A stretch of DNA of 64,000 nt from Nocardia miyunensis NBRC 108239. Its GTDB lineage: Bacteria > Actinomycetota > Actinomycetes > Mycobacteriales > Mycobacteriaceae. The stretch lies in NCBI RefSeq assembly GCF_001613065.1, contig NZ_BDBQ01000013.1:186001-250000 (forward strand), in the 5' to 3' direction. Positions 20,996 to 49,818 of this stretch are shown piece after piece. The notes beneath the pieces are model-generated. The model ran no database searches. It was not told the DNA's origin and saw nothing but the letters and a program-made list of their open reading frames with translations. The position numbers and the translations under genes were made by a program. The stretch's first letter is position 1. Each line of letters opens with the position of its first letter.

Positions 20996-20999
20996 TCGG

Positions 21000-22715: not shown

Positions 22716-22767
22716 TCCGCTGCAACACCCCGTGAAACACCCCGTAGGACAAGGAGCATCCCGGAAC

Positions 22768-23649: not shown

Positions 23650-23677
23650 GAACCGGCCTCGACGCGGTAACGGCCAG

Positions 23678-25615: not shown

Positions 25616-25818
25616 CCCGTTCTCCCGTAGGTCTTTTCTACGGACCCCGCAACGAGGCATGCAGAAGCAGGGCCCAGTGGCCAGAACAAGTTCGGAACCC
25701 CAAATGCGATCATCAACCCGGACAGGTCCCGAAGTCGCATCCAGGACGGAATGCCCCGCAGAGCCGTCAAGGCAATCGAAAACCAACAACAGCCTGCCAA
25801 ACTTGCTGGTCATCCAGC
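25616..25818 (+). promoter_or_regulatory. CRISPR leader
   Basis: 203 bases between cas2 and the first repeat. It contains a short hairpin (CCGTAG 25625-25630 with CTACGG 25638-25643), and the 3' part is richer in A and C than its surroundings. The conserved leader-proximal repeats and the degenerate repeat at the other end show that this is the leader side. The array promoter should lie here; no exact -10 box was assigned. Confidence 0.6.
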
Positions 25819-30480: not shown

Positions 30481-30917
30481 GTTGCCGCGCCACCGGGCAG
30501 GTGTCGGCGACGACACAGCTGCCCGCGAGCAGGTTCTCCGACATCGGCGGTGTACACCACGAATACCTCCACCACTACGACGAAGCACACAGCTATTTCC
30601 GGCAGGTCATCCCGGTCAGCCTGCATCCGCCCTTGAGGGCTCCCAACACGTGGTTCGGTCACAGAGGCTTCTGGTCGGCGGCAGGTCGGATCATTCTGCG
30701 CGTCGCCCTCCGCCCTACGAGTGCTCACACCAAAAAGACTCATGACCGAATAGGCGCAGGTGAGTCACATGCACTGTTGGTTCCGTTCCCGCGGACTCAG
30801 TGGCGGGTGAAGTCTGCCTGGGTGGACGCGGGGCGCCTCGAGGTTCCGTGACTGAGAGATACTGAGCGGCTTGTCTTTCCGGCTTCTGTGTCGGTCACCC
30901 GACGTACTCTGGCGCTG
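30481..30917. other. Gap between toxin cassette and Wadjet operon
   Basis: 437 bases with only weak open frames and no family match. It is likely to contain the Wadjet promoter. No repeat or RNA gene was seen. Confidence 0.45.
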
Positions 30918-32399
30918 ATGAGTATTGCAGGTGTAGAGGGTGCGTATCAGGGGGCTCTTCGGGCGTTCAAGACCCCGATGCTCGATTTGCTCCATCAGAC
31001 GTATGCGCCATTTGTGGTGACCATGCTGGCGACGGTGTTCACGGCTGAGCGTTCTGCGGTGACTGTGGCGGACGCGCATGCGGAGATCAGCGATGCGTTG
31101 GACCAGTTGCGGGCAGTGGGATACGGCGAGGAAGACCAGTTGCCGTTGCCGGTGGGCAGCGCGCGTGATCTGTGCCGTCAGTGGGTGAACGCCGGGTGGC
31201 TGGTGCGTCAGGTGCTGGACAACAAGGTCGAGGTGTATCGGCTGTCTGCGCACGGCGTGGGCGCGTTGGAAGTTGCGGGCCGGGTGGGAGGTTCGCGGAC
31301 GCGGGTGTCGGAGTCGCGGGTCCGGACGCTGTTGGAAGCAGTAGAGCGGCTGGCGCAGGACGCCGATCCGGATGTGACGGCGCGGATCGCTCGGCTGAGG
31401 GGCGAAATCCAGGAACGGCAACAGGAGTTGGAGCGGCTCGAGGCCGGTGGCGACGTCGAGTCGATCGACGATGAGCGGCTGGTGGAGGAGACGGAAAACG
31501 TGCTGCACCTGGTGCGGGAGCTGCCAGCGGACTTTGCCCGGGTGGCGGAGTCGATCAAGGCTATGCAGCGGGATGTGGTCGCTGATCTGCGGCAGGATGT
31601 GCGGCCGACGGGAGAGGTGTTGCGGGAATACTTGGAACAAGGACAGCAGATCATGGATGCAACGCCGGAAGGGCGGGCGTTCGCGGGGGCGTTGCGGTTG
31701 ATCGGCGATCCCGAGCAGATCGATGATTTGTCGAGCAGGTTGCGTACGGTGCTGCGGCATCGGTTCACCGCGCAGTTGACCGAACCGCAGCGGCGGGAGT
31801 TCACCGATATCGCGCGCCGGATCGAGCGAGGCGTCAAGGAGGTGCTGACAGCGCAGCGGCAAGCGTCGCATGTGATCACGACCCAGGTCCGCAACCACGA
31901 TCCGATGCGGGACCGGCAAGTGGACGAGTTGCTCCGTGAGGTGATGACCGGCTTTCAACGATGGATGCCCGGCTCCCGGCGCGGTGAGCTGATCGAGCCG
32001 CTGCGCCGCCTACCAACCGCGAGTGTCGAGCATCTGCGTCAATCGGTGAGCGATCTACGCCCATTCCAGCCGCCCGCACCGCTGGCCGAGTGGAACCGGG
32101 ACATGGTGCCGGACACCGATACCCGGGCGTGGGGCGGTCCGAATTACGCGGCGCTGGATGAGCATCTAGCACGGTTCACCGCCGAAGCGGACGCGATCGA
32201 CATCGCGGCCGTGTTCGGTGCGGCACCCGAAAAGGTCCGCCGCCCAGTCGATTTGCTCGGTCTGCTCGAGCTCGCGCATCGCGCCGGTATGACCGAAACT
32301 GGAGAGGTCGTCACCGTCGAGGCGGTCCGACCGGATCGGACGCGGCGGCGATTCGCGTTCGGCGGTGTGGCCGCGACGAAAGAAGGGGGCGACGGATGA
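30918..32399 (+). CDS. jetA: Wadjet subunit JetA (DUF3375)
   Basis: A 493-residue protein with the DUF3375 N-terminus [20 protein letters not shown], a winged-helix-like core and long helices (about 130-230). In type I Wadjet, JetA is the kleisin-associated MukF-like subunit that, with JetB and JetC, forms a condensin-like complex sensing closed circular DNA. The ATG at 30918 was chosen; a GTG at 30888 is also possible. It overlaps jetB by 4 bases (ATGA). Length and neighbours fit the family. Confidence 0.88.
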
Positions 32400-33103
32400 G
32401 TGAGACGAATGCCGGCGATGACTCGTGGCCCGAGAGCGAGGACACCGGGTTCATCGATCCGGTCTCGATGGAGGAAGACCCGACCGAGTTGTTCGCTGGC
32501 GACACCGGCACATTGGACGCGCAGGTGCGGCGGGTGCTGGTGCGGCTTCTGCAGCGCCGGTACCTGCTGGCCGACAAGAATCCGACGCAGTGGCGGACGC
32601 TACTGGAGAACCAGCAACTCATCGAGTCGCGGCTTCACGACATGTTCGTCCGGCTCGTGATCGATCACGAGCGCGGCATCGCCCACAAGCAGCAAGTGCG
32701 CTCAGCGGAACTCGACGTGCCGATCCTGTTGAGAGACGACCCCTACAACCGCGCCGAGACGCTGGTACTGGTCCACCTGCGCACGGTATTCCAACAGGAA
32801 AGGGTCGCGGGTGAGAACTCGGCGCGCGTCGATATCGAAGAACTCGAGCAAACAGTGCTGACCTACTTCGACCCGGATGACACCAACCTGGCACGAGGAC
32901 AGCAAGAGATCCGCAGCGCGGTGGCGCGGTTGGCCAAGGAGGGATTGATCGAGGAGGAAACCGCGGGCCGGTACCGGATCACGCCGCTGGTGGAGGTCGT
33001 GATGAGCACCGAGAAACTCAGCGAGCTCAGTCGGTGGTTGCGTGAACGCAACGACGGCACGGGCCCCATGGTCGAGGACGCCACGGGAGATATCGCGTCA
33101 TGA
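32396..33103 (+). CDS. jetB: Wadjet subunit JetB (DUF4194)
   Basis: A 235-residue DUF4194 protein with [20 protein letters not shown] and a winged-helix C-terminus ([32 protein letters not shown]). JetB corresponds to MukE and completes the condensin-like complex. The acidic N-terminus ([15 protein letters not shown]) is normal for the family. Its start and stop each overlap the flanking jet genes by 4 bases, indicating tight co-translation. Confidence 0.87.
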
Positions 33104-36100
33104 ATATGATCGACACGCTGTTCGGGCTGATCCCCGAGGCGTCTCGCGGCGAGCAGTGGGTGGCGCAGGATCTGCAGCTGGTCAACTGGGGCGGATACGA
33201 CGGGCATCATCGTGTGCGTTTCGCGCCCGGCGCGACCCTGCTGTGCGGTGAGTCCGGATCGGGCAAATCGACTCTGATGGACTCCTATATCGCGTTGATC
33301 ATGCCGCACACGATGCCCTTCAACGGGGCCTCCAATGGCGGCGTGGTCGGTCGGCCGCGCGGCAAGGACCAGCGCAACATCCTGTCGTATGCGCGGGGAA
33401 AACTCGACGAATCCCGTACCGCGGGTGAGACGAAGGCGCGGGTTCTGCGCGGCGACGGCCGGGACACCTGGTCAGCCATCGCGATGACATGGGCGGATCG
33501 GTCCAATGCGCAGTTCACTGCCGTCCGGGCATGGTATGTGCCGTCCTCGGCGCGCTCTCTCGACGACCTCGTCAAGGTGAGAGCCACCTGCGACGGGCCC
33601 TTCGACCTGCGCGAGCTGGCGGGACCGGCGAACAAGCGGCTTGCCGAGCCTGCAGTGAAAGGACTCGGGCTGATCTGTTACCCCACCGACCTGGAGTACA
33701 CCGCGAGGCTGCACGCCGCGCTCGGGATCGGCGCCGCCGGTGACGGGAACAAAGCCGTCGCGCTGTTGGGCCGGATTCAAGCAGGACAGCAGATCACCAC
33801 GGTCGACGCGTTGTACAAGACGATGGTTCTCGAGGAACCCTCGACCCTTGCCACGGCCGATGAGGTGGTTAAGCAGTTCGACGAACTGTCCAGCACGCGC
33901 ACACAGATGACCACCGCGCGCCAGCAGGTCAGGGCCCTGACGCCGATCCGTGAGCATCGCCGCGCCATCCACGAGGCGACCGATCGACTGCACATGATCG
34001 AAGCCATCGGATCGTTCACCGACTCCTCATCACCGGCGTGGTTGTGGCGGCACGAACGACGAGTCGAGTTGATGCGCGCTGCTGTAGAAGACCTACAGCG
34101 ACATCGCAAGCGAGCCGGCGAAGCAGCCGGTGTGCAGTCAGCCCTGGCTGAGGCGGCCACATCCGAACGGGACGGAGTAGCGGAGACTCTCCGTGCTTCC
34201 GGTGGCGACAGGCTCGAGCGAGCACATGGAGCGCTTCGTGAGGTGGAGAAAAGGCTTGACGACGTTACGCGGGCGCGCACGCGACTGGACGAGGTGTTGA
34301 ACGTTCTCGACGCCGAGGTAACCGGTGAAGAGGATTTCGCTGCCTTGCTCGCACAGGCGCGCCGATCGATCGATGACAAGACAGCCCGGAAGACTGCTCA
34401 GAACCAGTTCGCCGAAGCGAAGGTGCACCAGACGAGCGTTTCGCGTGAACTGACGGCGTTGCGCGCCGAGCGTGACGCCACCGCCGCTTGCCGTGGCAAT
34501 ATCCCCACCGAGCTGCATCGCGCGCGTGCCGAGCTCGCAGAGGCGGCTGGTCTCACGCCGGATGATCTTCCGTTTGTTGGCGAACTGATCGAGGTGCGTA
34601 CGGGTTTCGAACCGTGGCGCGAAGCGTTCAACCTGGCTTTGGGCGGCTTCGCGACGAGGATGTTGATCGACGTCGCGCACCTGAACACGTTTCGCGAGAA
34701 GATCAACACCGTGCGCACCGGTCGGCGCATCCAGTTCGAGGGGGTGCGGACCGGATTGCGGGACGTGATCGGGCTCGACGATCGCAGGCTCCCCGGCCGC
34801 CTCGACTACCGTCCCTCGCCGTTCACGGCCTGGCTCAAAAGCGAACTCGTCAGCCGGTTCGACTATGTGTGTGTCGAGACTCCCCGCCTGCTGTCACAGC
34901 ATGCCAAGGCGCTCACGATCACCGGTCAGATCTCGGACGGTGCGCGCGGTGCGCACGGCGGCCAGGGACGAGCCAACGTCCTCGGCTTTACCAACGACCG
35001 GCTGCTGAGGGGTCTCGATGAACAGATCAGCGACACCGAGAAGCGCGAGACCATCGCGGGCAAGCGATTGAAAGCAGCGCAGGACGCCCTCGACTCCTTC
35101 GAAGACCGGCGCGGCGCGTACCGCACTCTGACCGAACTGTCCTGGGACCAAATCGATGTCGACTCCGTCTCGGCCGAACGGGACCGATGGACAAAAATCA
35201 TCGACGAGGTTCACTCCGACAACCCCGAGATCGACCGGCTGCAGACACAATTGAACGCACTGAAGGTCAAGGCGAAGGACCTCGCCGAGAAAGCGATCCG
35301 GGCCAAGCTCGAGAAGGAAGACCTCGACAAAGCCTGGGAAAAGCTCACCGCCGAGGCAGCCACCGCCACAGAGGAACTCGACACCGCCCACCAGTCCGGC
35401 CACGAGATCACCGCGGAGCACCGCGACTATCTCACCGCATCGCTCGGGACAGATGGGGCCACCGATGTCTCGGCCGGCGAGGCCCTCGAGCTATTCGATA
35501 GCTCTGTGCACCGTGTGGCCGATCGGCTCACCACCGATCGACAGACCTCGGCGAGCGCAATCGCCAGGGCCAGAAACGCACTGTCCGAAACATTTTCGAC
35601 ATTCGTCGAACGCTGGCCGAACCCGAACCTCGGTACCGACCCCGAAGCCTCCTACGACGATTTCGAACGCCTGCTCACCGACCTGGAGACCAGCCGACTG
35701 CACGAGCTGGAAAGCCAATGGCGCGATAGCCTGCTGAAACTGTCGGGCAACGACCTCACAAGCCTCGACAGCGAACTCGCCTCGGCCATCCGGGAAATCC
35801 GCGACCGGATCGAACCGGTCAACCGCATCCTCGCCGACCTACCCTTCAGCGATGACGACCATCGACTGCAGATCGACCCACAGGAAAGCCACTCGACAGT
35901 CCGCGCCCGCTTCCGCAAAGAGCTGCGTGATGTCCGCCGCTTGATCGACCAGGCCAGCACCGACACCGACCGGGAGCGTGCCTACGGTCGAATGTCCAAG
36001 GTGATCGACCGCATCCGCCGGGCAGCCCCGGACTTCGCCGACCTTATCGATGTACGCACCCACATCCGCATCAGCGCCGAAAAGCGCAACGCCGCAAACG

Positions 36101-36453
36101 AACACGTCGCGCTCTACGACCACATCGGAGAGAAATCCGGCGGCGAGTCCCAGGAACTCGTGGCCTTCATCGTCGGCTCGGCCCTGCGTTATCAGCTGGG
36201 CGACGCGGGGGCCGAACGACCCCGCTACGCTCCGGTCTTCCTCGACGAAGCACTCATCAAGGCCGACGCCCGCTACACCGGTCGCGCCATCGGCGCCTGG
36301 CGTGGTCTCGGATTCCAGCTCATTGTCGGTGCCCCCAACGACAAGAACAGCGCCATCGAACCGCATGTCGAGGCCGAGTATCTGGTGCTCAAGGACCCCC
36401 AAAGCCGCTCGTGGGCCAAACCCATTATCGGCGTGTCCGGGGAGCCGGAGTGA
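33100..36453 (+). CDS. jetC: Wadjet subunit JetC (SMC/MukB-like ATPase)
   Basis: A 1117-residue SMC-type protein. Walker A is [12 protein letters not shown] (residues 49-60). Long coiled coils span roughly 280-480 and 650-900, with the hinge region between them. Near the C-terminus come the ABC signature [17 protein letters not shown] (about 1010-1025) and Walker B-like [14 protein letters not shown] (about 1042-1055). ATP-driven loop extrusion by JetABC lets JetD find circular plasmid DNA. It is full length with both halves of the ATPase intact. It overlaps jetB and jetD by 4 bases each. Confidence 0.93.
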
Positions 36454-37739
36454 CCGCCCGACTGGTGACAGTGCAGGCGGCCCTTGACACGATCCGCCGC
36501 AAGATCGACCAGAAGTGGGCCGACGCTGTGTGCGCCGAACGCGGCATCGGTGTCCCCGTCTCCTTTTCGGTGCCGCTTCGCCCCGGCGTGTCGACCGGGA
36601 AAAGCGTCGGACAGATCGGGTACGACCACTGGCACGCATGGCATGCGGCGTGGCGCTTGTTCGAGACACAGGTCATCAGCGGAGTCGAACGGGTCAAGAT
36701 CATCCGTAAGCCGGTGACGATCCGCGGTGTGGCTGATGAGTTCCCGGCAATGCTCGTAGCCGAAACTTTCTCCGCCGCTATCGAACTCGCGGGCCGAGCT
36801 CAAGCGAGCCCCCTGGCCGTCGACGTCGATCGTGCCCGCATCCTCGCCGAATCGCTCGACGCCATCGGTGCGACTCTGACCCCAGCCACCTTGAAGGGCG
36901 CCCACCGGCTCGCCGATTCCGACACTGAGATTCTGTTCGCGGCTGTGTCCTGGTTACGTGACCATCCCGACGTGGGTGAGTGGACTGCTCGCCAACTTCC
37001 GGTCCCCGGGATGCACTCCAAGTGGCTCGAAACCCACAGTGCGCTCCTGGCGATGGTCGCCGGCCGTGACGTGCGCGCCGAAGTCCGGCCGCGACTCGCC
37101 GTCGTGCACCTGACCTACGTCGACCCCGACTACACCGATTCGGGTAGACGCAGGCACGACTCGTGGACCACCGGCGACGTCCACGATCTCGCGTACGAGC
37201 CACGGGTCGTCCTCATCGTCGAAAACCGTGACTGCCGCCTCTGGTTCCCCCCTGCCAAGGACACGATCATCGTCGAAGGAAGCGGCAAGGCCGCTGCGTC
37301 TCTGCTTGTCGGCATCACCTGGATACGCGCGGCCGAACACGTTGTCTACTGGGGTGATATCGACGCCGACGGGTACGCGATCCTCGACCGGCTGCGCGCT
37401 GCGATGGGCACACCCACCACAGACGGCTTGCCTGCCAAGACCGTCCACTCCCTCCTCATGGACGCTTCCGACCTGCACCGGTATGCCCGCCATGGCGTGA
37501 ACCACGACAAGGCCGGTCACCCGATCAAGCCTTCCCCGGCGCGGCTCACCCACCTCACCCAGACCGAAGCCGACGCCTACGACTTCGTCGCCACCGCAGG
37601 ACCCGCGCTGTTCCGGCGAATCGAGCAAGAGGCAATGCCACTGTATGACGTTGCGGCACAGCTTGATCTTTTGATCAACACTCTCTCGACTCCGACGCTG
37701 CCCCCGAACGATGACACGCGAACTACACGCCAGATCTGA
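36450..37739 (+). CDS. jetD: Wadjet nuclease JetD (DUF3322/DUF2220, Toprim-like)
   Basis: A 429-residue protein with an N-terminal DUF3322 part (QKWADAVCAERGIGVPVSFS) and a C-terminal Toprim-like domain: Glu in VVLIVENRDC (about residue 256) and the D-x-D-x-D motif YWGDIDADGYAILDRLR (about 300). In Wadjet type I, JetD cleaves the DNA once the complex is engaged on a circle. It starts at a GTG overlapping the jetC stop. A clean four-gene operon is completed here, and no active-site residue is missing. Confidence 0.92.
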   Translation: MTARLVTVQAALDTIRRKIDQKWADAVCAERGIGVPVSFSVPLRPGVSTGKSVGQIGYDHWHAWHAAWRLFETQVISGVERVKIIRKPVTIRGVADEFPAMLVAETFSAAIELAGRAQASPLAVDVDRARILAESLDAIGATLTPATLKGAHRLADSDTEILFAAVSWLRDHPDVGEWTARQLPVPGMHSKWLETHSALLAMVAGRDVRAEVRPRLAVVHLTYVDPDYTDSGRRRHDSWTTGDVHDLAYEPRVVLIVENRDCRLWFPPAKDTIIVEGSGKAAASLLVGITWIRAAEHVVYWGDIDADGYAILDRLRAAMGTPTTDGLPAKTVHSLLMDASDLHRYARHGVNHDKAGHPIKPSPARLTHLTQTEADAYDFVATAGPALFRRIEQEAMPLYDVAAQLDLLINTLSTPTLPPNDDTRTTRQI

Positions 37740-37956: not shown

Positions 37957-38754
37957 GTGGCCGAGTCCTTGGAGGAGCTTCAGCGGCGCATCGACGATCT
38001 GCGGACCGAGGTGCAGCGAGTGGTGCGTGCGGGTGATCCCCTGCGCCTTCGTGAGTTGAGGGCCGAGCTACGTCGCGCGGACAGCGCGTACTACGAGGCG
38101 TTGGACGCTGTGGACATGCCCAAGGCTGAGTCCGGCCCATGTGAGCAACCGGGAACGATGCTGCCTGTGCGTGATCAGGTCCATCAAGCGCTGACACTGC
38201 TGAGTGTGCCGTCGGCTCCGAAAATGATTGTGGCAGTGCAGGATGCGTTTTTCGCTGGAGAACTGACCGGGGCTCAGCTGGCTAGTCTGCGGCGGGACGA
38301 GGAACGGTCGTTTCGTTCTTCACCGCATGCGCGGCCCTTCTACCTGTGCAGCGCGTTGACTGCCGATCGGCTGGTCGCCGCTCGTGGTCTTGTGGCGGTG
38401 TCGACCTGGGCGATGAGTCGCCGGGTCATCGGGCCGCTGAGTCCGCGCGTGGATTTCCTGACCGCGGGAATTGCGGTGGCAGAACGGATCACGCGGATGC
38501 CTGTCCCCACGCTGCCGGTGTTGCGGCTGCTGTGGCGGTTTGCGACCAGCATTCCTGATGCGGCTGCGTCCTTCGACGTGATGGACGCAGCCACCGTTGC
38601 GGATGCTGCGCGGGCGGAGTTGGCGATCCACCGGGACGCCGACGACGCTGAGCGAGAGTCGACCGCGTTGCGGGCGCGCCGACAACTCGACGACGCCGAG
38701 CAATTGTTCGGCTCGGCTCTGAAGGTTGTTACGCGCGTTACAGCTCCAGACTGA
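37957..38754 (+). CDS. Unknown protein with coiled coil and winged-helix-like region; first gene of the nuclease-helicase module
   Basis: About 265 residues from a GTG at 37957; GTG 37948 and TTG 37930 are alternatives. An N-terminal coiled coil (SLEELQRRIDDLRTEVQRVV) is followed by a helix-rich DQVHQALTLLSVPSAPKMIV and then SLRRDEERSFRSSPHARPFY, which could be a winged-helix DNA-binding or protein-contact domain. I do not recognise a named family. It lies 61 bases before the Fe-S nuclease gene and about 220 bases after jetD, so it opens the next operon. Its role may be regulation or target recognition. Confidence 0.6.
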   Translation: MAESLEELQRRIDDLRTEVQRVVRAGDPLRLRELRAELRRADSAYYEALDAVDMPKAESGPCEQPGTMLPVRDQVHQALTLLSVPSAPKMIVAVQDAFFAGELTGAQLASLRRDEERSFRSSPHARPFYLCSALTADRLVAARGLVAVSTWAMSRRVIGPLSPRVDFLTAGIAVAERITRMPVPTLPVLRLLWRFATSIPDAAASFDVMDAATVADAARAELAIHRDADDAERESTALRARRQLDDAEQLFGSALKVVTRVTAPD

Positions 38755-38815
38755 CCGGCGACCCGGTCATACTTTCCCCTATCCCTTGCTTGCTTCCGTT
38801 GTGAAGGAAGATCAC

Positions 38816-39946
38816 TTGAACGACACCGACTTTCGTCTGGATGTCATTCGCGGCCCGGTCGCGCCGGAGAAGTTCAACGCGCGCGCCATCGCCGCGTTGA
38901 CCGGCAATCCTGGGTGCGCGCGGCGCGCGGTGCTGGACGCGGCCGCGATCGACAAACATGCCCTGGCCCAACACCTGGGGTACCCGCCGCGATTCGGTAT
39001 GTCCGAATTCGCCATCGCCCGTGGCATCGCGTTCGAGACCTTCGTCAAGGCCCACGGGTGCGCGGAGGTGCTGGCTCTGCTGCGCGATCGCCTCGGCCTG
39101 CCCGTGCGCGAGGCGTCCTACACCGACCTCAACAGCGTCGCGGGCCGGGAAACCTTGCAGGCGCGGTGTCTTCGTTCGCGTCAGGTGCTCGCGCAGGCTG
39201 TGCGCGCCGGGGACGATTCGGGGACGTTGTTCGATCATCCGGTGCTGCAGATGACGATCGCGGGACATCAGGTCTACTTGGAGCCGGATCTTGTTGCGTT
39301 CCAACTACACAACACCCTGTTCCATGTGGTGGAGATCAAATCGTTCCCTATCATCGACGGTCGCGCTGATCCGGGCAAGGTGTCCGCGGCCGCGACGCAG
39401 TCGGCGGTGTATGTGCTGGCGTTGCGGCAGTTGCTGGCCGAACTCGGCGCCGATCCGGGGCGGGTGTCCGATGAGGTGTTCGTGGTGTGCCCGCAGGATT
39501 TCTCGAACCGCCCCACTGCGGCGCGCGTGGACGTGCGCAAACAGTTGTTGGTCCTGCGCCGCCAGCTCGCCCGGATCGAGCAGATCGGCTCACTGATCTC
39601 TGCGCTGCCGCCAGGGCTGACCCTGGACCTGCGGATCGACGCGGCGGGAGTGGCGCGGCGACCGGTCAGTGAGCTGCTCGAGGCGGTGAATCGGCTCGAG
39701 CCGCGGTACGCGCCGGAGTGTCTTGCCACCTGTGAGATGAGCTTCTTGTGCCGGACCCAGGCCCGCGGATCCACTGCCGCGCTGGGGCGCTCGGTTCGCG
39801 AGGATCTCGGCGGTATCGAAACAATCTCTGCAGCACTGGAGTTGGCGGTCGGTGATCGCGATCCCGGCGACCACGAGCGGGAGGCTGCCGAGCTGCTGCA
39901 GCTGGCGCAGACACTGCGCGAGGAGTGCCTGGGCGGTGTGGCATGA
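38816..39946 (+). CDS. Cas4/AddB-like Fe-S PD-(D/E)XK nuclease
   Basis: About 376 residues from a TTG at 38816 with GAAGGA upstream. The nuclease core is LEPDLVAFQL (Asp, about 155) and HVVEIKSFPI (E-x-K, about 172-174), followed by the helix GKVSAAATQSAVYVLALRQL. One cysteine near the N-terminus (NPGCARRAVL) and three near the C-terminus (PECLATCEMSFLC) repeat the Fe-S pattern of Cas4, AddB and Dna2, though with C-x3-C-x5-C spacing. Such nucleases degrade single-stranded DNA at ends. It overlaps the next gene by 4 bases (ATGA). It is not part of the cas operon 13 kb upstream. Confidence 0.75.
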   Translation: MNDTDFRLDVIRGPVAPEKFNARAIAALTGNPGCARRAVLDAAAIDKHALAQHLGYPPRFGMSEFAIARGIAFETFVKAHGCAEVLALLRDRLGLPVREASYTDLNSVAGRETLQARCLRSRQVLAQAVRAGDDSGTLFDHPVLQMTIAGHQVYLEPDLVAFQLHNTLFHVVEIKSFPIIDGRADPGKVSAAATQSAVYVLALRQLLAELGADPGRVSDEVFVVCPQDFSNRPTAARVDVRKQLLVLRRQLARIEQIGSLISALPPGLTLDLRIDAAGVARRPVSELLEAVNRLEPRYAPECLATCEMSFLCRTQARGSTAALGRSVREDLGGIETISAALELAVGDRDPGDHEREAAELLQLAQTLREECLGGVA

Positions 39947-41421
39947 GCACGTTGACCGCGTTGGCGCGGGCGAGGGCGTTCGATCGGGGTCGCGCACAAC
40001 CGATCACCACCGCACGGCATGTGCACATCGCCCGAGAACCTATGGTGTGTGTACCGCTGACCATGGCGGGGGAGGCGAACGCCCCATTGGCGCTCATGGC
40101 CGGTACCGAGCGGGAATCCCCGCGCCTGTGGGTTGTTCCTCAGCCTCGGGCTCGTGATCTGCGCCTGGAATTCGCTGGCAGCTTCGCGAAGACGCTGCAC
40201 CGGTATCTCGGCGCTTCCATCGGCACGGGCCCGGGAGGCATGGGCTCGCACATGGACGGCGCGCCGCAGTTGTGGGTGCCCAACCGTGGAGGGATCGAGT
40301 TTCTGCGATTGCTGGGCCGCTCCACCCGCTTTCGGTCCACCACCGGTCCGCACGCGGTCAGCGGTGCTGTGCCGCGCTCGGGGATGTGGCTGACGTTCTT
40401 CACCGAGCAGGCCGAACACGCAGGGGCCTGTCTCTTGCTGGCCGCGACCGATGTCCTCGGGCAGCACTGGGCCAGCGGGCAGAGCGCGGTGGAGGACCAG
40501 AATCTGGCGGCCTTGCTGGCATGGATCGCCCCGCCGTCGGATTCCACCGCAGCCCACGGTGCGCTCGAGGCCGAGGATCCGTTGTTGTGGCCCCCGGCCG
40601 GGCCGAGCACGGACCCGGGGTTCGACCGGGAAGTGTTGGCGCCGTGCATCGCCGAGTACGATCGCGCCACCGGGGAGCGGGCTCGGCGGCGGGCGGTGGC
40701 GCGTATCGAATCGGCGTTGCGCAGCCAGCTCGACCCGACCTGGCAGTTGATGTGGCGGGCGATCGATCAGCTCCGCCAGCTGCGGCCCGCAGCGCATGTC
40801 CCGCAACGCTGGGCGCGCGACGTCGATGCGTTCGGCGCGTTCAACACCTATGTGGCCGAAGGAGGGCGGCCCCAGCCCAAGCGTGACAGCGCGGTAGCCG
40901 CAGCGATTCGTCTCAACCAGCTCGAACGCTGCCGAGCCGAATACGATGCGCAGCGCGCATTCGACGACCCCCTCGTGATGGCCGAGTTCCGGCTGATCGG
41001 CGAGGCGTTCGCGGGCACCCTCGCCTCGATCACGGCCGATCGGCGCATCGGAACAGGCCGGCACGCGGTGCTGCGACCGCTGGCCACCGTGGTCACCCGT
41101 GATCCGGTCCGGTTCGCCCCCGGTGACGGACCGCTCACCGATCCCGCACGCCCACAACAGAAAGCGACCATCATCTCCGTCGACGACGTGCCGGAGGGTG
41201 TGCAGGTCACGCTCGAGCTCGCAGGCGGGATGGGTCGAGCCTCCATCGCCCCCGAGGGCAGCGTGCCCGTCGTCGGGCAGCGGGTGTGCTACAGCACCTT
41301 GAGCGCCGCCTACCAGCCGCAGGGCAGTTTCCCTGCGCGCCAGGACACCCCGTGGACACATGGCGGCTCCACCGAACCTCCCGCCTGGTCGATGGAAGAT
41401 GCCGATGAGGAGTGGTCGTGA
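39943..41421 (+). CDS. Unknown protein between nuclease and helicase
   Basis: A 492-residue protein starting MSTLTALARARAFDRGRAQP. It has no P-loop, signal peptide or membrane segment. The N-terminal 150 residues contain PLTMAGEANAPLALMAG and a strand-rich WVVPQPRARDLRLEF part. The C-terminus (ATIISVDDVPEGVQVTLEL, GQRVCYSTLS) looks like a small beta barrel. I cannot name a family. Its start overlaps the nuclease stop by 4 bases and its stop overlaps the helicase start by 1 base, so the three products are probably made in equal amounts and may form one complex. Confidence 0.7.
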   Translation: MSTLTALARARAFDRGRAQPITTARHVHIAREPMVCVPLTMAGEANAPLALMAGTERESPRLWVVPQPRARDLRLEFAGSFAKTLHRYLGASIGTGPGGMGSHMDGAPQLWVPNRGGIEFLRLLGRSTRFRSTTGPHAVSGAVPRSGMWLTFFTEQAEHAGACLLLAATDVLGQHWASGQSAVEDQNLAALLAWIAPPSDSTAAHGALEAEDPLLWPPAGPSTDPGFDREVLAPCIAEYDRATGERARRRAVARIESALRSQLDPTWQLMWRAIDQLRQLRPAAHVPQRWARDVDAFGAFNTYVAEGGRPQPKRDSAVAAAIRLNQLERCRAEYDAQRAFDDPLVMAEFRLIGEAFAGTLASITADRRIGTGRHAVLRPLATVVTRDPVRFAPGDGPLTDPARPQQKATIISVDDVPEGVQVTLELAGGMGRASIAPEGSVPVVGQRVCYSTLSAAYQPQGSFPARQDTPWTHGGSTEPPAWSMEDADEEWS

Positions 41422-42734
41422 TGAGCGAGGACGCGACCGTCGTCGAGTCGGTGATCTCGGGGGTCCTGGACGATTTCACCGGCGGCGCCGGTCGTGGTGT
41501 CGTGGTCGATTCCCCACCCGGAGCGGGCAAGTCGACGCTGGTCGTGCGCGCGGCCACACAGATTGCTCGCGCAGGCGAGCCGGTCATGGTCGTCGCGCAG
41601 ACCAACGACCAGGTCGACGACCTGGTCGACCGCATGGCCCGCGAAGCCCCGGCCACGCGCATCGGCCGCCTGCGCGGGGGTGACTACGTCCCCAGCGCCC
41701 GCGTCGGTCATCCGAATGTGATTGTGGCCGACAAGGTCCCGGACCTCGGTGAGGCGGCGATCGTGCTCGGCACCGCAGCCAAATGGGTCCACATCAACCA
41801 GGGGCCTTGGCCATGGGCGATCGTCGATGAGGCCTACCAGATGCGCTCGGATATGTTGCTGCGTGTCGCGCCGCGCTTCGACCGGGCTTTGCTGGTCGGG
41901 GACCCGGGGCAGCTCGACCCATTTTCCACGATCGACATCAACCGGTGGACCGGGCTGGCGTGGGATCCGATGCAGAGCGCTGTGGCAGCGCTGCTGGCTA
42001 ACAACCCTGACATTCGCCCGCACCAGCTGCCGGTGTCCTGGCGGCTGTCGGCCACCGCGGCGCCCCCGGTCTCCGCAGCGTTCTACCCGTTCACCGGGTT
42101 CCGCGCCGCCACCACCGCCCAACAGCGGCAGCTGACCTACCGGACCCGTGGATTCGGCGGTCCGATCGATGACACCCTCGAAGTGGCCGCGCGCACCGGA
42201 TGGGCCCTGCACGAGTTGCCTGCCCGGCATACGATGCGCACCGACCCCCAAGCCGTGCAGGCGATCACCGACATCGCCGTGCGCCTGCTCGAGCGTGGCG
42301 CGATGGCCCGGTCCGAACGCGACCCGGACGGTGTCGTGGTCACTCAGGAGCGCATCGCCATCGGCGCGGCCCACCGCAACCAGGTCGCCGCCATCGGGCA
42401 GGCCTTGCACGCGCGCGGCGTCGACCGGATCCGGGTCGATACCGCCAATCGGCTCCAAGGCAGCGAATACGACATTGTCCTGGTGCTGCATCCGCTGTCG
42501 GGGCGCCGGGACGCCACCGCGTTCCATCTCGAGTCCGGGCGACTATGCGTGCTGACCTCCCGGCACCGGCATGCGTGCATTGTGGTCGCCCGCGCAGGGA
42601 TTCAACAACTTCTGGACGCCCACCCGCCCGGTGAACCGCTGCACATCGGCGTGCCGGCCAAGTTCCCGGACGGATGGGAGGCCAACCAGGCCATGCTCAC
42701 CCACCTGCACGCCCACCGCGTTCGCAGCGCCTGA
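41421..42734 (+). CDS. SF1 (Dna2/Upf1-like) helicase
   Basis: A 437-residue protein with a full SF1 motif set: I SPPGAGKSTLVV (about 31-42), Ia VVAQTNDQVDDLVD, II AIVDEAYQM (about 135), III LLVGDPGQLDPF (about 160), IV-like PVSWRLSA, V VDTANRLQGSEYDIV (about 340) and VI TSRHRHACIVV (about 380). Motif II DEAY and the NRLQGSEYD form of motif V fit SF1B Upf1/Dna2-like helicases. With the upstream Fe-S nuclease it would recreate the nuclease-helicase pair fused in eukaryotic Dna2. No nuclease domain is fused here. SbcD follows after 75 bases. Confidence 0.82.
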   Translation: MSEDATVVESVISGVLDDFTGGAGRGVVVDSPPGAGKSTLVVRAATQIARAGEPVMVVAQTNDQVDDLVDRMAREAPATRIGRLRGGDYVPSARVGHPNVIVADKVPDLGEAAIVLGTAAKWVHINQGPWPWAIVDEAYQMRSDMLLRVAPRFDRALLVGDPGQLDPFSTIDINRWTGLAWDPMQSAVAALLANNPDIRPHQLPVSWRLSATAAPPVSAAFYPFTGFRAATTAQQRQLTYRTRGFGGPIDDTLEVAARTGWALHELPARHTMRTDPQAVQAITDIAVRLLERGAMARSERDPDGVVVTQERIAIGAAHRNQVAAIGQALHARGVDRIRVDTANRLQGSEYDIVLVLHPLSGRRDATAFHLESGRLCVLTSRHRHACIVVARAGIQQLLDAHPPGEPLHIGVPAKFPDGWEANQAMLTHLHAHRVRSA

Positions 42735-42809
42735 CCCGCACGATTCGCAGACAGTTCGATCGCTCCCGACGGCGGGTAAGCCCCGTCGACCATTCCTGGA
42801 AGAGACCTG

Positions 42810-44066
42810 ATGAGAGTTCTGCATACCTCCGACTGGCACCTCGGTCGCATCCTGTACAAAGAGCCCCGCGCACAAGACCACGACACAGTCCTGCAAGAAA
42901 TCATTGCCATCGCTCGTACCGACAAGCCGGACCTGATCGTGCATTCCGGCGATCTGTTCGACCACGCCCGCCCGTCCTACCCGGACCAGGAAAGAGCCCT
43001 GCTGGTCCTGCAGGAACTCGAAACCGTCGCTCCCGTGGTGGTGTTGCGCGGCAACCACGATTCGGCGTACCTTTTCCGGCTGTTCGCCACCGCGGCCGGA
43101 CCACACAGCCGCATTCACTACATCGACAGCCCCCGAGACCCGAAAAACGGTGGCGTACTACGTTTTCCTGGCCCAGACGACACGGTGCTGCGCCTGGCGG
43201 TGCTGCCGTTCGTGCACGCCAACCGGCACCTGGACATGCTCGCAGATCCCGACCGGTGGCAATCCGCATACACGGAACGCATCGGTGCGATGGAACGCGA
43301 GCTCGCCGACGAACTCTTTCGTGATTTCGACCCTCACCGGGAGATCGCGATGTTCGCCGCTCACCTGCACCTCAACGGCTCCAACCTGGCCCGCAGCGAA
43401 CGCAAGGCACACATCGCGGACTACTACGCCACCGACACCGCGCACATTCCCGAGGTGTCCTACGCCGCATTCGGGCATATCCACAAACCACAACCGCTGC
43501 CGGGCAAGGTCACCGGTTGCTACGCCGGATCACCCATCCAGCTCGACTTCGGCGAACTCGGCGAAACCAAGAGCGTGGTCCTGGTCGACGCCGAACCCGG
43601 CCGCCCGGCCCAGATCACCCTGCGGGAGCTGTCCGGCGGCCGGCAACTACGTCGCTTCCACGGCACCCTCGACGAACTGCGCTCGCAAGCCACACTCATC
43701 GGACGGGACCTGTGCCACATCACCATCCGCACCGACGCCCCCGACCTCACACTGTCCGAGCAGGTGCGGACCATCATCCCGGACGCGACCGTGCTCGAGG
43801 TAATCACCGACTGTCCCGGGCAAAAGCTGCCCATCCTCAGCCCCGACCCTGAGACCGCAGGCACCGAACCCAGCATGCCCGCATTGTTCGACGACTACCT
43901 GTCCGCTCACGGCAGCAAAACCGTTACCGCCGACGCGGTCAGCCGGGTATTCGCCGACATCTGGTCCTGCCTGGAAGAAGAACGCCCCTTCCTGATGCCC
44001 GAGGAACACACCCTGACTCAACCGCTCAGCGCGAACCCGAGTCTGCCGACCGAGGAGAACCTCTGA
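42810..44066 (+). CDS. sbcD: SbcD (Mre11-like) nuclease subunit
   Basis: A 418-residue metallophosphoesterase with all Mre11 motifs: MRVLHTSDWHLGR (D8, H10), VHSGDLFDHA, VLRGNHDSAY, FAAHLHLNGS and AAFGHIHKPQPL. SbcD with SbcC opens hairpins and processes blocked DNA ends. The C-terminal 130 residues are the usual capping and SbcC-binding part. The ATG at 42810 lies after GAAGAGA. Its stop shares a base with the sbcC start, so the pair is translationally coupled. Length is normal. Confidence 0.95.
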   Translation: MRVLHTSDWHLGRILYKEPRAQDHDTVLQEIIAIARTDKPDLIVHSGDLFDHARPSYPDQERALLVLQELETVAPVVVLRGNHDSAYLFRLFATAAGPHSRIHYIDSPRDPKNGGVLRFPGPDDTVLRLAVLPFVHANRHLDMLADPDRWQSAYTERIGAMERELADELFRDFDPHREIAMFAAHLHLNGSNLARSERKAHIADYYATDTAHIPEVSYAAFGHIHKPQPLPGKVTGCYAGSPIQLDFGELGETKSVVLVDAEPGRPAQITLRELSGGRQLRRFHGTLDELRSQATLIGRDLCHITIRTDAPDLTLSEQVRTIIPDATVLEVITDCPGQKLPILSPDPETAGTEPSMPALFDDYLSAHGSKTVTADAVSRVFADIWSCLEEERPFLMPEEHTLTQPLSANPSLPTEENL

Positions 44067-47062
44067 TGCGACCGCTCACACTGACGATCAAAGGCCTGCG
44101 CTCCTACCGAGAATCCCAGCACATCGACTTCAGCGACATCGGCCTGATGGCGATCATCGGAGCCACCGGCGCGGGGAAATCCTCGATTTTGGAAGGCATC
44201 TGCTTCGCCCTCTACGGGCTTCCCACCTGGCCCGAAGGATCGGCCAAACCACTGATCGCCGACGACGGCGACGGCACTGCCACCGCAATCCTGACCTTCG
44301 TGGCCAAAGGCAAAACATGGCAGGTGACCCGCACCACCTCCCGCCGACGGCCCGCCAACCACGAACTACGCTGCCTGGACGACGACCGAGTCGAACCCCT
44401 GGACTCCAGCACCGAGATCAAAGCCAAGATCGAACAGCTCGTGGGCCTGAACTACAAAGCATTCCTCAAGGCGGTCATCCTCCCCCAAGGCAAATTCCAG
44501 GAGCTGCTGCACGCCGGAGACTCCGAACGCCCCCCGATCCTCAGAGCCGTCCTGGGACTCGAGCAGATCTCCGAGGTCCGCAAACAAGCGTCCGCCACAC
44601 AACACCGCCTCGAGCCGCATCTGCTCCAGCTCGAGCGGCAACGCGCTCCGCTCACTCCCGACCCCGACGCAGTCATCGCCACCACCACACGGGAACTGAC
44701 CGCGCTCGACGGCCAGATCACCGAACTGACCTCGATCAAGAAAACGCACACCGAGGCCAGCAACACCCACACCGAGGCCACGCAAGCCGCTGCCGTGCTC
44801 CGCACGACCGCGCACGAACTCGAACAACGCATAAGGCAGGATTTCGCCGCCCGATACCAGCAACTGCTCGACCAGCACGCCGCACTCACCACCGAACTCT
44901 CCACGGCCCGAGCATCGCTGCGCGAGACCAGCACCCAGTCCGAACGCATCACCGAAACCCTGGCCCGTGCCGACGACGACGGCACCGGCGTCGAGGCCAC
45001 GGTGGCACTTCTGAAAGATCTGGGATCGGTGCAACGCCAGCTCCCGGACATCGAGGAAGAACAACACGACCTCGCCGACCAACACACCAGCATCGCCACC
45101 GACCGCGCTCACCTCGAACACCGCCGCGGCGAGCACGCCGGACTGCTCGAGCGTGCCGAACAAGCACGCACCTACGCGGCCAGTCTCGAATCCGAGGTCG
45201 AGGCCGCCGCCCAGACCCTGGAGAAGTACCAGTCGCTCCTGCGGGAGGTTCGGCGCACCGCAGGCGACATCGAGACCACCACCGTCGCACAGACCACTGC
45301 GCGAGGAGTTCTCCAGGAAGCGACAACAGCGCTCGCTGAGGCGAAACACGCCGCAGCACAGGCACGTTCGCAGGCCGAGACCGCCACAACCGCACTAACG
45401 GACGCCCATCGTGCCGACGCCGCCGCTCATGCCGCCGAGGGCCTCGACGCCGGTGACCCGTGCTCGGTGTGTACCCGGCCATTGCCCACCGACTTCGAAC
45501 CCCCGCACTCTCCCGACATCGCCGCGGCAAAACGCCTCCAGAGCAGTGCGACACGACGCGAAAGCGCCACCGCAGACAAACTTCAGGCTGCCGAACGGAA
45601 CCATGCCGCCGCCGAATCGACGCTCGCCGTAGCTACCGAAGCCCGCGCCCACGCCGGTGTCGACTACATCACCGCGGTCGAATCCCTCACCGCCGCAGTC
45701 GGTTCCGTCGATCTCGAATACCCCGACGAAGCCCTGCTCGGCGCACCTCGCCTGGCCCACAATACAGCCAAGGCTGCCCACAAAGACGCCGGTGACGCTG
45801 CGGAGAAAGCCCGTGCGGACACCATCAAGGACGAGACCGAGATCGCAGGCCTCCACGAGGCGGTCGAGGCCCGACACAATGTGCTGACCAAATCGGTTGC
45901 AGCACTGGAACGCCGGAAAACTGCAGCGCTGGACATCTACAACGCCACACCCGCTCGATACCGCACCAGTGGCCCGATGGGGCAGGACACGATCGGTGAC
46001 GCGATCGAGCAGGTCCAACGCCGCAAACACGAACTCGATCAGTTCACCGTGGAATTGAAAAACATTCAGGCACAAGCAAAAAAACACCGGGCAGCACTCG
46101 ATGAGGTGAATGACCGCCTCGGTGCCGAGGTCTTCACACCAGCTGAACGGATCGCCGGGGAAATCCGTGTACTCGCCGACCGCGCCGCATCCAGCACACC
46201 GCTGACCACCGCCGTCCTCATCCCGCCACGTCCGGAGCCCACATCGCTCACCACCGATGCGCAATGGGCGGACCAGGTCATCGCCGCGGCCGAGGCGATA
46301 GTTCGCAACTGCTACGCGGCGGCGACAGTTCGTGACCAAACCGCTCACGACGCACACACTGCGATGACCAGCATCCTGGACAGCGCGCAGGTATCCAGCG
46401 CGCAGGACCTCGACGATCAACTCGACGACGCGCGGGCACGCAGACGGATGGCCATCGCCGAACAGGACAAAGCACGAGCCGACAAGCCACGGGCAGACGA
46501 GATCGATCAGCGCATCGACCTCCTCACTCCGCAACTCGCTGTACTCGGCGAACTGCACTCGTTGCTGTCCGACGGAAGATTCATGAACGCGGTACTCAAA
46601 CGCCGACAAGGTGTCCTACTGGGGCGGGCAACCAAGATTCTGCTCGAGATGACCAAAGAACGATTCGCCTTCCACCACGACTTCAAGATCTTCGACTGTG
46701 TAACCGCACAACCACGCTCAGCCAAGACCCTCTCGGGCGGCGAGACATTCCTGGCCAGCCTCGCGCTCGCTCTCGCTCTGATCGAACTCACCTCCAGCGG
46801 AGGCGGGCGAATCGAATCCTTGTTCCTCGACGAAGGATTCGGCACACTGGACCCCCGCACCCTGGACGAAGCCATGGACGCCCTCACTCAACAAGCCGAC
46901 GCCGGCCGCCTGGTTGCCGTGATCACCCACATGGAGGATGTCGCTGAATACTTCGACAACATCCTCATCGTCGACAAGATCGACGACAGCAGCCACACCC
47001 ACTGGGCAACAGGACAAGAACGCGAACACATGATCATCGGCCGCTCCGGGCCTACACAGTGA
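44066..47062 (+). CDS. sbcC: SbcC (Rad50-like) ATPase subunit
   Basis: A 998-residue protein. Walker A is IIGATGAGKSSILEG (residues 30-44). Coiled coils extend from about 170 to 850 around the zinc hook GDPCSVCTRPLP (C-x2-C, about 466-469). The signature KTLSGGETFLASLALALAL (about 887-905) and Walker B SLFLDEGFGTLDPRTLDE follow near the C-terminus. With SbcD it forms the MR-type complex that tethers and processes DNA ends. It is the last gene of the six-gene run. All key motifs are intact. Confidence 0.95.
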   Translation: MRPLTLTIKGLRSYRESQHIDFSDIGLMAIIGATGAGKSSILEGICFALYGLPTWPEGSAKPLIADDGDGTATAILTFVAKGKTWQVTRTTSRRRPANHELRCLDDDRVEPLDSSTEIKAKIEQLVGLNYKAFLKAVILPQGKFQELLHAGDSERPPILRAVLGLEQISEVRKQASATQHRLEPHLLQLERQRAPLTPDPDAVIATTTRELTALDGQITELTSIKKTHTEASNTHTEATQAAAVLRTTAHELEQRIRQDFAARYQQLLDQHAALTTELSTARASLRETSTQSERITETLARADDDGTGVEATVALLKDLGSVQRQLPDIEEEQHDLADQHTSIATDRAHLEHRRGEHAGLLERAEQARTYAASLESEVEAAAQTLEKYQSLLREVRRTAGDIETTTVAQTTARGVLQEATTALAEAKHAAAQARSQAETATTALTDAHRADAAAHAAEGLDAGDPCSVCTRPLPTDFEPPHSPDIAAAKRLQSSATRRESATADKLQAAERNHAAAESTLAVATEARAHAGVDYITAVESLTAAVGSVDLEYPDEALLGAPRLAHNTAKAAHKDAGDAAEKARADTIKDETEIAGLHEAVEARHNVLTKSVAALERRKTAALDIYNATPARYRTSGPMGQDTIGDAIEQVQRRKHELDQFTVELKNIQAQAKKHRAALDEVNDRLGAEVFTPAERIAGEIRVLADRAASSTPLTTAVLIPPRPEPTSLTTDAQWADQVIAAAEAIVRNCYAAATVRDQTAHDAHTAMTSILDSAQVSSAQDLDDQLDDARARRRMAIAEQDKARADKPRADEIDQRIDLLTPQLAVLGELHSLLSDGRFMNAVLKRRQGVLLGRATKILLEMTKERFAFHHDFKIFDCVTAQPRSAKTLSGGETFLASLALALALIELTSSGGGRIESLFLDEGFGTLDPRTLDEAMDALTQQADAGRLVAVITHMEDVAEYFDNILIVDKIDDSSHTHWATGQEREHMIIGRSGPTQ

Positions 47063-48408: not shown

Positions 48409-49818
48409 ATGCCCCAAGTTGATGTGACAGTCCTGCGGGGTCCGCTGTACACGCTGCTGAACACGGGCACGCACGAGGACATCACCAAGAGATTCGCGAC
48501 TCTCGGTCTCTCAGAGCACTGGTCCGAAACTGATCACCGACAGTCGAAGGCTCAGCGAGTCGAGTCGGTACTGGCTGCAGCACCGGCCGAGGAGTTGCGG
48601 CGGATCGCCGAGTCGTTCGTGGCCACTGGGGCACTGGATGCTATGGTGCGCAACGAGATTCAGGATCTTCTGTGGGCCGGTCAGGAGCCGAAGATTCGAG
48701 AACGCACACGCCGTACGCTGGCCTCCGCCCTCGATATCGACGCTCTTGTCGTCGATATCGACCGCTTCGAAGCCATGCTCGACCGCTGGTGGGTTCTGGG
48801 CACACCATCCCCTTTCGAAGGAATCTTCAATAGCAGCGATACCTCAACGTTCGCCCAGATATTCGGCCCCGGCAGCGGCGCGGACCGGCTCCGCAAGGAC
48901 ATCCACCAACATGTTTTCCGCAATCGAGACTGGTCGACTGCGCAACTGTTTGACAAGCTGGGCGCATTCGAGGCCGTCGACCGCCGATTCCTGGGGTTCA
49001 TCGAAGAACTTGTCTCGCATCGGGTTGTCATCGAGGAGACCAATCAGCAGCGCATCGTCGCGGCAATGACTCCGGTCCTGCGCGAGGCCGGCCTGGAGCT
49101 GCGAGAAACCGATGACGACAACGGCTACCCCGAATTCCGGATCGTCTCGACCAGCGTGCCGAAAACACGGCCGAAGACGGTCATCTTCGGCTCAGAACAC
49201 AAACCCGACCTGCGAGTCAGCGACACCGTCGACAGCGAGATCGAGATCGTCGACGCGCGCGGTTCGCTCGTCTACGACGACCCGATCGGCCCAGCCGGAC
49301 TGCGATGGCAGGACCTGCAAGCTTGGTGGCAACGCCACCATCCGGAGCTCGATGACGATGCTGCCAAGAAAACCCTGTTCAACCGGCTGAAATACGCTGT
49401 GCCGGATGGCTCGCCACCACAACGGCGCCTGTTCGAGCTGTATCATGACATCTACCGTGAGCAGATCCCTTCTCTGCCAGCGCTTCTCCCTGAAGTGTGG
49501 CTGCACTGGGACCACAAGACCGTTCGCGAGCGCGGTGCGGGGGCGCTGCTCGGACAGCGGATGGACTTCCTGCTGCTGGCCCCTAACCATCACCGCATAG
49601 TCCTTGAGGTCGACGGCGTAACCCACTACACCGACACGGCCGGCAAGCCCTCGCCGAGCCGTTATGCGCGCAACACCGCACTCGACCGCGACCTCCAACT
49701 GCGCGGCTACACCGTTTACCGATTCGGCGGCGCGGAACTCCCCGACCACAGCGGCCCAACCCCGATGCTCACCCAGTTCTTCCGAAGGATGTTCGCCAAG
49801 CACGGCATCGCCACCTGA
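48409..49818 (+). CDS. AbiJ-like protein with C-terminal PD-(D/E)XK (DUF559/Vsr-like) domain
   Basis: A 469-residue protein. The N-terminal ~130 residues are helical; the middle (LRKDIHQHVFRNRDWSTAQL, FDKLGAFEAVDRRFLGFIEE) resembles AbiJ N-terminal domain 3 proteins of abortive-infection systems. The C-terminus has a nuclease core: GQRMDFLLLAPNHHRIVLEV then DGVTHYTDT, with Asp and E-x-D/H spacing as in Vsr/DUF559 enzymes, and LQLRGYTVYRFGGAEL. It stands alone, with IS21-like and IS110-like remnants on either side. A role in phage defence is inferred from the domains and location. Confidence 0.68.
   Translation: MPQVDVTVLRGPLYTLLNTGTHEDITKRFATLGLSEHWSETDHRQSKAQRVESVLAAAPAEELRRIAESFVATGALDAMVRNEIQDLLWAGQEPKIRERTRRTLASALDIDALVVDIDRFEAMLDRWWVLGTPSPFEGIFNSSDTSTFAQIFGPGSGADRLRKDIHQHVFRNRDWSTAQLFDKLGAFEAVDRRFLGFIEELVSHRVVIEETNQQRIVAAMTPVLREAGLELRETDDDNGYPEFRIVSTSVPKTRPKTVIFGSEHKPDLRVSDTVDSEIEIVDARGSLVYDDPIGPAGLRWQDLQAWWQRHHPELDDDAAKKTLFNRLKYAVPDGSPPQRRLFELYHDIYREQIPSLPALLPEVWLHWDHKTVRERGAGALLGQRMDFLLLAPNHHRIVLEVDGVTHYTDTAGKPSPSRYARNTALDRDLQLRGYTVYRFGGAELPDHSGPTPMLTQFFRRMFAKHGIAT

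Follow-up and report, generated by a model that had tools for sequence, protein, structure and literature searches.

The question raised by the six-gene run at positions 37957-47062 of a 64,000-nucleotide stretch of Nocardia miyunensis NBRC 108239 (the window, part of contig C13 of the 10.5-Mb genome) is whether its putative nuclease, helicase and SbcD-SbcC proteins act together on DNA ends, and whether they do so in defence. A preliminary description of this DNA had proposed a split Dna2-like nuclease-helicase beside SbcCD as a dedicated end-processing defence system. We found the run to be a recurring cassette, U1-Nuc-Mid-Hel(-SbcD-SbcC), and propose that it encodes a DNA-end processing machine in which a split Dna2/Bad-type enzyme would work with SbcCD and U1, one subtype degrading invading linear DNA. 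The chance that this proposal is right as a whole is judged to be about even. Its parts differ in strength: the anatomy of the cassette is held with high confidence, end processing is considered likely, and a joint defence role with Wadjet is tentative and falls somewhat short of even.

Direct reading of the window confirmed the coordinates of the run, with six genes on the same strand, overlaps of 4 bases and 1 base between the three genes of the putative nuclease-helicase, and SbcD 75 bases further on:

U1, 37957-38754, + strand: 265 residues, GTG start, without known domain.
Nuc, 38816-39946, + strand: apparent iron-sulfur (Fe-S) PD-(D/E)XK nuclease of the Cas4/AddB/Dna2 kind; TTG start most likely, with GAAGGA at 38803-38808.
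Mid, 39943-41421, + strand: 4-base overlap with Nuc; predicted DnaQ-like N-terminal fold, helical part and superfamily 1B (SF1B) 1B beta-barrel.
Hel, 41421-42734, + strand: 1-base overlap with Mid; RecA1 and RecA2 of an SF1B helicase.
SbcD, 42810-44066, + strand: 75 bases past Hel; Mre11-like nuclease, cassette-bound paralogue.
SbcC, 44066-47062, + strand: 1-base overlap with SbcD; Rad50-like ATPase, cassette-bound paralogue.

Conservation of the cassette

The preliminary description had made its proposal depend on the nuclease, the middle protein and the helicase occurring together elsewhere, and this is what was found. In a sample of 249 genomes of the window's order, searched with cut-offs of 0.001 (Nuc) and 1e-40 (Hel), Nuc was detected in 35 genomes and Hel in exactly those 35, with equal copy numbers (39 each, a split match in G212 being counted once). 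Mid lay alongside Nuc in all of 121 loci. Of these, 41 came from searches of the order and of plasmids and 80 were the best of 490 from one genome scan, every locus having been found via Nuc. Hel was within the locus in 93 of the 121, and SbcC or SbcD in 18; in Micromonospora-type genomes such as G015, Hel lies tens of kilobases away. One distant actinobacterium (L180) also keeps the order Nuc-Mid-Hel; in another (L181), the profile did not detect Mid, though space for it exists. In a sample of the phylum, 13 of 296 genomes matched, two of them weakly. The nearest named relative of the window Nuc in the genome scan was that of Nocardia sp. SYP-A9097 (84% identical).

Two neighbourhoods of the distant loci were recorded separately. 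Nuc-Mid-Hel of L180 (1-6222) adjoins a ResIII helicase, an N6/N4 DNA methyltransferase and a UvrD-PDDEXK protein, and a PF13482 RNase_H_2 protein lies directly 3' of Hel in L181 (4759-6453).

Nuc, Mid and Hel as a predicted split helicase-nuclease

Searches of Pfam, PADLOC and NCBIfam returned no family above chance for Nuc. Residues E173-x-K175, Q195 and Y199 were invariant in 47 aligned sequences and D158 nearly so, and the four cysteines expected of an Fe-S site (C34, C302, C306 and C312) were invariant in the same alignment. The AlphaFold model (predicted local distance difference test score, pLDDT, 90) was matched by VIA to Cas4 (Z 9.9), EXO5 (8.3), AdnA (8.0), AddB (6.7) and Dna2 (6.6), and also to lambda exonuclease; the range overall, Z 6.5-9.9, is moderate. 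Because of these conserved residues and the predicted fold, Nuc appears to be an Fe-S PD-(D/E)XK nuclease, in agreement with the Cas4/AddB-like Fe-S nuclease first suggested.

Hel matched Pfam AAA_11/AAA_12 and carries the motifs Walker A (K37), DEAYQ, GDPGQ, RLQG and SRHRH. The best PDB matches of its profile were DNA2 (5eaw) and IGHMBP2 (4b3g), which bears out the SF1B type assigned earlier. The alignment to 4b3g begins only at about position 198 of the IGHMBP2 sequence. The portion preceding RecA1 was recognized in Mid, for which, as for U1, no Pfam, NCBIfam or PADLOC family was found above chance. The Mid model (pLDDT 89) has two recognizable parts. Residues 349-453 matched the 1B beta-barrel of IGHMBP2 (4b3g residues 41-139) with VIA Z 9.1 and a root-mean-square deviation (rmsd) of 2.2 over 81 residues, followed by Senataxin and Sen1 and then, lower, Upf1; unrelated barrels scored 6 to 7.8. 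Since the barrel in Mid corresponds to IGHMBP2 41-139 and Hel to the sequence from about 198, the boundary between the two genes separates 1B from RecA1. By this prediction Mid would contribute the 1B barrel missing from Hel, so that Nuc, Mid and Hel would resemble a Dna2/Bad helicase-nuclease in three chains. The idea of a split Dna2-like enzyme is strengthened by this barrel, predicted in the very protein that had been left without a function.

The other part, residues 31-344, matched chains of family-B DNA polymerases (VIA Z 9.7, rmsd 3.5 over 175 residues). About residues 31-210 are predicted to adopt a DnaQ-like fold; going by the residue numbers of these matches, the matched stretch is probably the DnaQ-like exonuclease domain of those polymerases. 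This part is probably noncatalytic, because a nearly invariant alanine (A42) occupies the place expected of the first catalytic aspartate and D185 is not conserved in the distant homologue of L180; E44 is retained in the family. All of these positions were assigned by visual inspection, with no coordinates used.

Several other identities were considered for these proteins. Nuc as a CRISPR Cas4 or adaptation module was rejected, as it has no PADLOC Cas4 match and the Cas4 of the island is a separate gene. Neither Nuc nor Mid is the TM0106/TIGR03491 nuclease by NCBIfam, which gave no match for either protein. A phage origin of Nuc was also set aside: no relative was found in phage records, and none of 60 pattern-matching stretches in viral contigs was confirmed.

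Two further observations concern related proteins. A single chain of 1326 residues (L188 2116-6096, G000:C29), which combines TIGR03491-like segments with a terminal SF1 helicase portion, may belong to the second class of Bad proteins. On plasmids of Mycobacterium, Rhodococcus, Xylanimonas and Mycolicibacterium (L189-L192), genes resembling Hel at about 32-34% identity come after a VWA gene and a gene some 390 codons long; in the four regions inspected, hhalign ruled out the product of the latter as Nuc or Mid.

SbcD and SbcC

SbcD matched the NCBIfam sbcd model at 122.7 bits (cut-off 77.65) and has the phosphoesterase motifs DWHLG, GDLFD, GNHD and GHIH. SbcC matched Pfam AAA_23 and SbcC_Walker_B, and NCBIfam sbcc below its cut-off; Walker A, signature, Walker B and the CSVC zinc-hook motif are all present. 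The pair is not the only SbcCD of the genome: contig C29 carries a further one, which shares about 28% identity with that of the cassette and is presumably the housekeeping copy. For the cassette pair, the concern that sbcCD might stand here as ordinary housekeeping genes is answered by this other copy. One case leans the other way: on contig C115, a piece of SbcC lies by a second Wadjet where Nuc was not detected. The divergence of SbcD tracks that of Mid (Mantel r 0.85, p 0.0001, n=16).

The C115 locus (L078 2524-11810, G000:C115) is itself of note as a second Wadjet-like JetA-D set, convergent with the SbcC piece near the contig end. The piece is 45% identical to the window SbcC over 157 residues.

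Two subtypes of the cassette

A tree was built for 126 loci. Of the 121, five duplicate-contig loci and a short one were removed; ten Streptomyces-like loci were then added, as was the window, and L180 and L181 were left out. SbcCD was present in 17 of the 126, across three tree groups. One group of 12, 11 of them with SbcCD, includes Nocardia, Kibdelosporangium, Amycolatopsis, Crossiella, Actinokineospora, Pilimelia and Micromonospora among others. The flanks of the two kinds of locus differ. Only 3 of 93 flanking genes of the 16 SbcCD-linked loci (window excluded) belong to families common to at least four loci, versus 818 of 1341 for the 110 others without SbcCD, the latter figure being inflated by many Actinomadura genomes. 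Since flanking families are widely shared in the one case and hardly shared in the other, the core without SbcCD looks largely vertical and the SbcCD-bearing subtype mobile.

These data bear on the first alternative, that the cassette is a genome-maintenance machine, a back-up resection enzyme for double-strand breaks that the cell keeps alongside its other repair nucleases, some mobile copies of which would lie in a defence island only incidentally. The shared flanks of the loci without SbcCD speak for it, as do the neighbours that Actinomadura loci have in common, such as a DUF3418 protein (HrpA-like), and the presence of Nuc in 38 of the 98 genomes sampled from the genus of the window. Against it stand the scarcely shared flanks of the SbcCD-linked loci and the recurrence of Wadjet beside them; moreover, the window Nuc is closer to copies outside its genus (64-70%) than to the remaining ones listed for the genus sample (49-56%). 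As an explanation of the cassette at large, this alternative is considered to be on the unlikely side. For the four-gene core, the claim of dedicated defence did not hold as a general one, because the core is mostly without SbcCD or Wadjet and in many cases occupies a stable place in the chromosome. For the subtype with SbcCD, a role in defence is plausible, judging from its variable flanks and repeated Wadjet neighbourhood.

A GGDEF-EAL neighbour was seen to be common to Nuc-Mid loci of the Micromonospora type and Nuc-Mid-Hel loci of the Streptomyces-like kind (L060, L063, L175 and others).

Wadjet and the defence island

The nearest upstream system in the window is the following:

JetABCD, 30888-37739, + strand: complete Wadjet type I, ending 217 bases before U1.

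A type I or II Wadjet gene was found in the fetched locus for 8 of the 17 SbcCD-linked loci versus 1 of the 109 others (L140), with type II profiled by JetA only (Fisher p 1.6e-7, a value that ignores kinship, L037 and L038 being close relatives). By type I profiles alone, a Jet gene was present in 5 of 17 versus 0 of 109. Type I is near the cassette in the window, L037, L038, L085 and L135, and type II in L122, L158 and L170. The arrangement varies: Wadjet lies upstream of U1 in the window, downstream of SbcC in L135 and L122, convergent beyond SbcC in L085, downstream of Hel in L037, L038 and L158, and beyond a divergent SbcC in L170. Wadjet is thus a recurrent neighbour of the SbcCD-bearing subtype, outside the cassette core. 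JetA was over cut-off in 48 of the 249 genomes and, among those with Nuc, stood beside it only in the window genome and G248. Genome-wide co-occurrence with Wadjet was rejected, the per-genome counts not being enriched; the link is one of neighbourhood within the SbcCD subtype.

The wider flanks were compared with PADLOC for defence genes in general, 81 proteins in each set. The set from the SbcCD-linked loci, made up of the 81 proteins between 120 and 1100 residues long among 93 in the flanks, with Jet genes kept in, matched 171 families, versus 75 for the control (81 of 177 flanking proteins of 16 randomly drawn loci, hand-picked from nine of them). Among the matches listed, most families were kinase-like background in both sets, JetA of types I and II appeared in the linked set only, and PglW and MkoA in the control only. 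The six cassette proteins matched no Jet model among the matches listed, except for weak SbcC-JetC matches (E 4e-4 and 0.03).

In the window the run is flanked by further defence genes. A type I-C CRISPR-Cas system lies at 17958-27000. Cas3, Cas5, Cas8c, Cas4 and Cas1 were identified among the genes tested, and the array, with 17 or more repeat copies of about 72-base period, runs from about 25819 to the end of the searched stretch. An AbiJ_NTD3-domain protein is encoded just downstream of the run at 48409-49818. Given this system, Wadjet I and the AbiJ_NTD3 protein around it, the run lies in a defence island, as had been recognized before. Between CRISPR and Wadjet, at 28201-29628, a WXG100-like protein with a C-terminal GH-E HNH-type nuclease domain is encoded, which is likely a secreted toxin.

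The second alternative is that SbcCD and Wadjet are mere island neighbours that do not work with Nuc-Mid-Hel. The absence of SbcCD from 109 of the 126 loci, the varying order of genes around the core and the lack of per-genome Wadjet enrichment speak for it. It is judged rather improbable, given that SbcCD-linked loci occur in three tree groups, that SbcD has diverged in step with Mid, and that the adjacency to Wadjet covers two types in several arrangements.

U1 and the telomere genes of linear plasmids

A link that the preliminary description had not mentioned was found for U1, the cassette family of which was aligned from 14 sequences. U1 was present in 12 of the 249 genomes, all Nuc-positive (the match in G236 was weak and on another contig). 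The plasmid search with U1 gave nine records: two Streptomyces cassette plasmids, one Nonomuraea plasmid with the core, and six other Streptomyces linear plasmids. In all six of the latter (L193-L198), the U1-family gene lies just upstream of Tap-like and Tpg-like genes, assigned by annotation and mutual similarity in five loci and by tblastn in L198, and an HU gene precedes it in five, L194 being the exception. NCBIfam named the Tap-like proteins of L193 and L194 as Tap, at scores under the equivalog cut-off (E 1e-92 and 5e-83), and their Tpg-like proteins gave weak Tpg matches (6e-4 and 1e-9). The cassette and plasmid sets are one family (hhalign Prob 100, E 2e-55, 241 columns).

The available text of one paper describes Tap as binding the terminal protein and 3' overhang structures at telomeres (PMC4513846). 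Because the U1 family precedes tap-tpg and Tap has this published role, we infer that U1 may deal with DNA ends. A third alternative, in which the cassette would be a linear-replicon system that processes or protects protein-capped ends of linear plasmids or chromosomes with U1 as a shared telomere factor, draws on the same six plasmids and on the location of one SbcCD cassette on a 151-kb contig that also has a full-length Tap gene and of another cassette on a 300-kb linear plasmid. It is considered improbable. Of 36 genomes searched for Tap, 34 of them Nuc-positive, only four were over cut-off, all in one genus; the window genome has no full-length Tap, its partial matches being weak and similar in kind to those in control genomes; and U1 was absent from the stretches covered around five full-length classical tap genes.

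Proposed mechanism

The mechanism proposed here would extend from the computed composition, conservation, gene linkage, predicted folds and Wadjet adjacency to complex formation, polarity, order of action, a role for U1 and defence. Nuc, Mid and Hel would form one enzyme, a Dna2/Bad-type Fe-S nuclease and 5'-3' SF1B helicase in three chains; Mid would be its scaffold, binding Nuc and giving Hel the 1B barrel. This enzyme would load on a 5' single strand, translocate 5'-3' and cut. In eukaryotes, Mre11-Rad50 opens ends for DNA2; SbcCD would likewise recognize ends, including blocked or hairpin ones, and open them for Nuc-Mid-Hel. U1 might mark, handle or gate the ends, a role suggested by the travel of its family with linear-plasmid telomere proteins. 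Wadjet reportedly cleaves closed-circular plasmid DNA, by the titles of published work, and the mobile SbcCD subtype would most likely destroy invading linear DNA, including plasmid DNA linearized by Wadjet. The core without SbcCD would more likely serve resection or repair. A bolder form, in which the cassette is the bacterial counterpart of the MRN-DNA2 axis and the degradation arm of Wadjet, with U1-SbcCD-Nuc-Mid-Hel destroying the linear product and U1 telling foreign ends from its own capped ones, is doubtful and regarded as an improbable extension.

Several results weigh against the proposed machine. At the level of folds, Foldseek gave no match at E 0.001 or better for the models of Nuc or Mid, and the structure matches were moderate (VIA Z at most 9.9). 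When Nuc, Mid and Hel were compared by hhalign with one TM0106-like single-chain protein of the genome, only Hel aligned, a weak comparison as it involved a single sequence. The four-gene core, mostly without SbcCD and often among stable chromosomal neighbours, points to maintenance. Wadjet was not enriched per genome for type I (4 of 14 linked versus 3 of 18 unlinked) or type II (8 of 15 versus 9 of 18), and the locus of the nearest relative, L080, has no Jet gene.

If the proposal is true, a simple actinobacterial system encodes Mre11-Rad50 and a Dna2-like enzyme together, and it hints at the fate of DNA once Wadjet has cut. The model of Mid offers a structural guess, a DnaQ-like fold plus a helicase 1B barrel, for the unexplained middle of bacterial Dna2-like proteins. 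The U1 family would tie end processing to the telomere genes of linear bacterial replicons, and the recognition of own versus foreign ends becomes testable.

Comparison with known systems

The preliminary description knew of no system with such a composition, and none was found among the literature matches listed, by titles and abstract openings, a coverage outside which most subscription journals fall. The main text of a survey of Cas4-family nucleases has no SbcC, Wadjet or TM0106 (PMC5704561), and that of an actinobacterial defence survey has no SbcC (PMC10482375).

The predicted fold of Nuc is like that of CRISPR Cas4, yet Nuc matches no Cas4 model. Wadjet (JetABCD), whose nuclease is named as JetD in the available text of PMC10586767, is near in the window and in seven further SbcCD-linked loci, as type I or II, but no cassette gene is a Jet protein and the cassette is mostly without Wadjet nearby. 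With the Tap-Tpg telomere operon of Streptomyces linear replicons, U1 alone is common: a U1-family gene precedes the divergent tap-tpg pairs on six plasmids, and the run in the window is without a Tap gene, the window genome not having been searched for Tpg. Compared with SbcCD, the bacterial Mre11-Rad50, the cassette pair has the catalytic and zinc-hook motifs but is a second, divergent copy beside the genome's other one. The enzyme classes of eukaryotic DNA2 and Mre11-Rad50 stand side by side in the cassette, which differs by its split chains and the predicted DnaQ-like part of Mid; RPA- or RecQ-like partners were not searched for.

The closest likeness is to Bad, the bacterial DNA2-like helicase-nuclease, which the available text of its description presents as sporadic in bacteria, as is the cassette, and as having these activities in one chain with an unexplained central domain; Mycobacteria and their relatives have a second class, and the authors suspected that Bad acts in restriction (PMC7430649). 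The Fe-S RecB-family nuclease, central domain and SF1B helicase of Bad follow the same order as Nuc-Mid-Hel. The nuclease motifs and four cysteines of a Dna2/Bad enzyme are all found here, and RecA1, RecA2 and the 1B barrel are found or predicted, distributed over three genes in place of the one polypeptide of Bad and joined by U1 and, in one subtype, SbcCD. The cassette may therefore be a split variant of the Dna2/Bad helicase-nuclease and may work alike.

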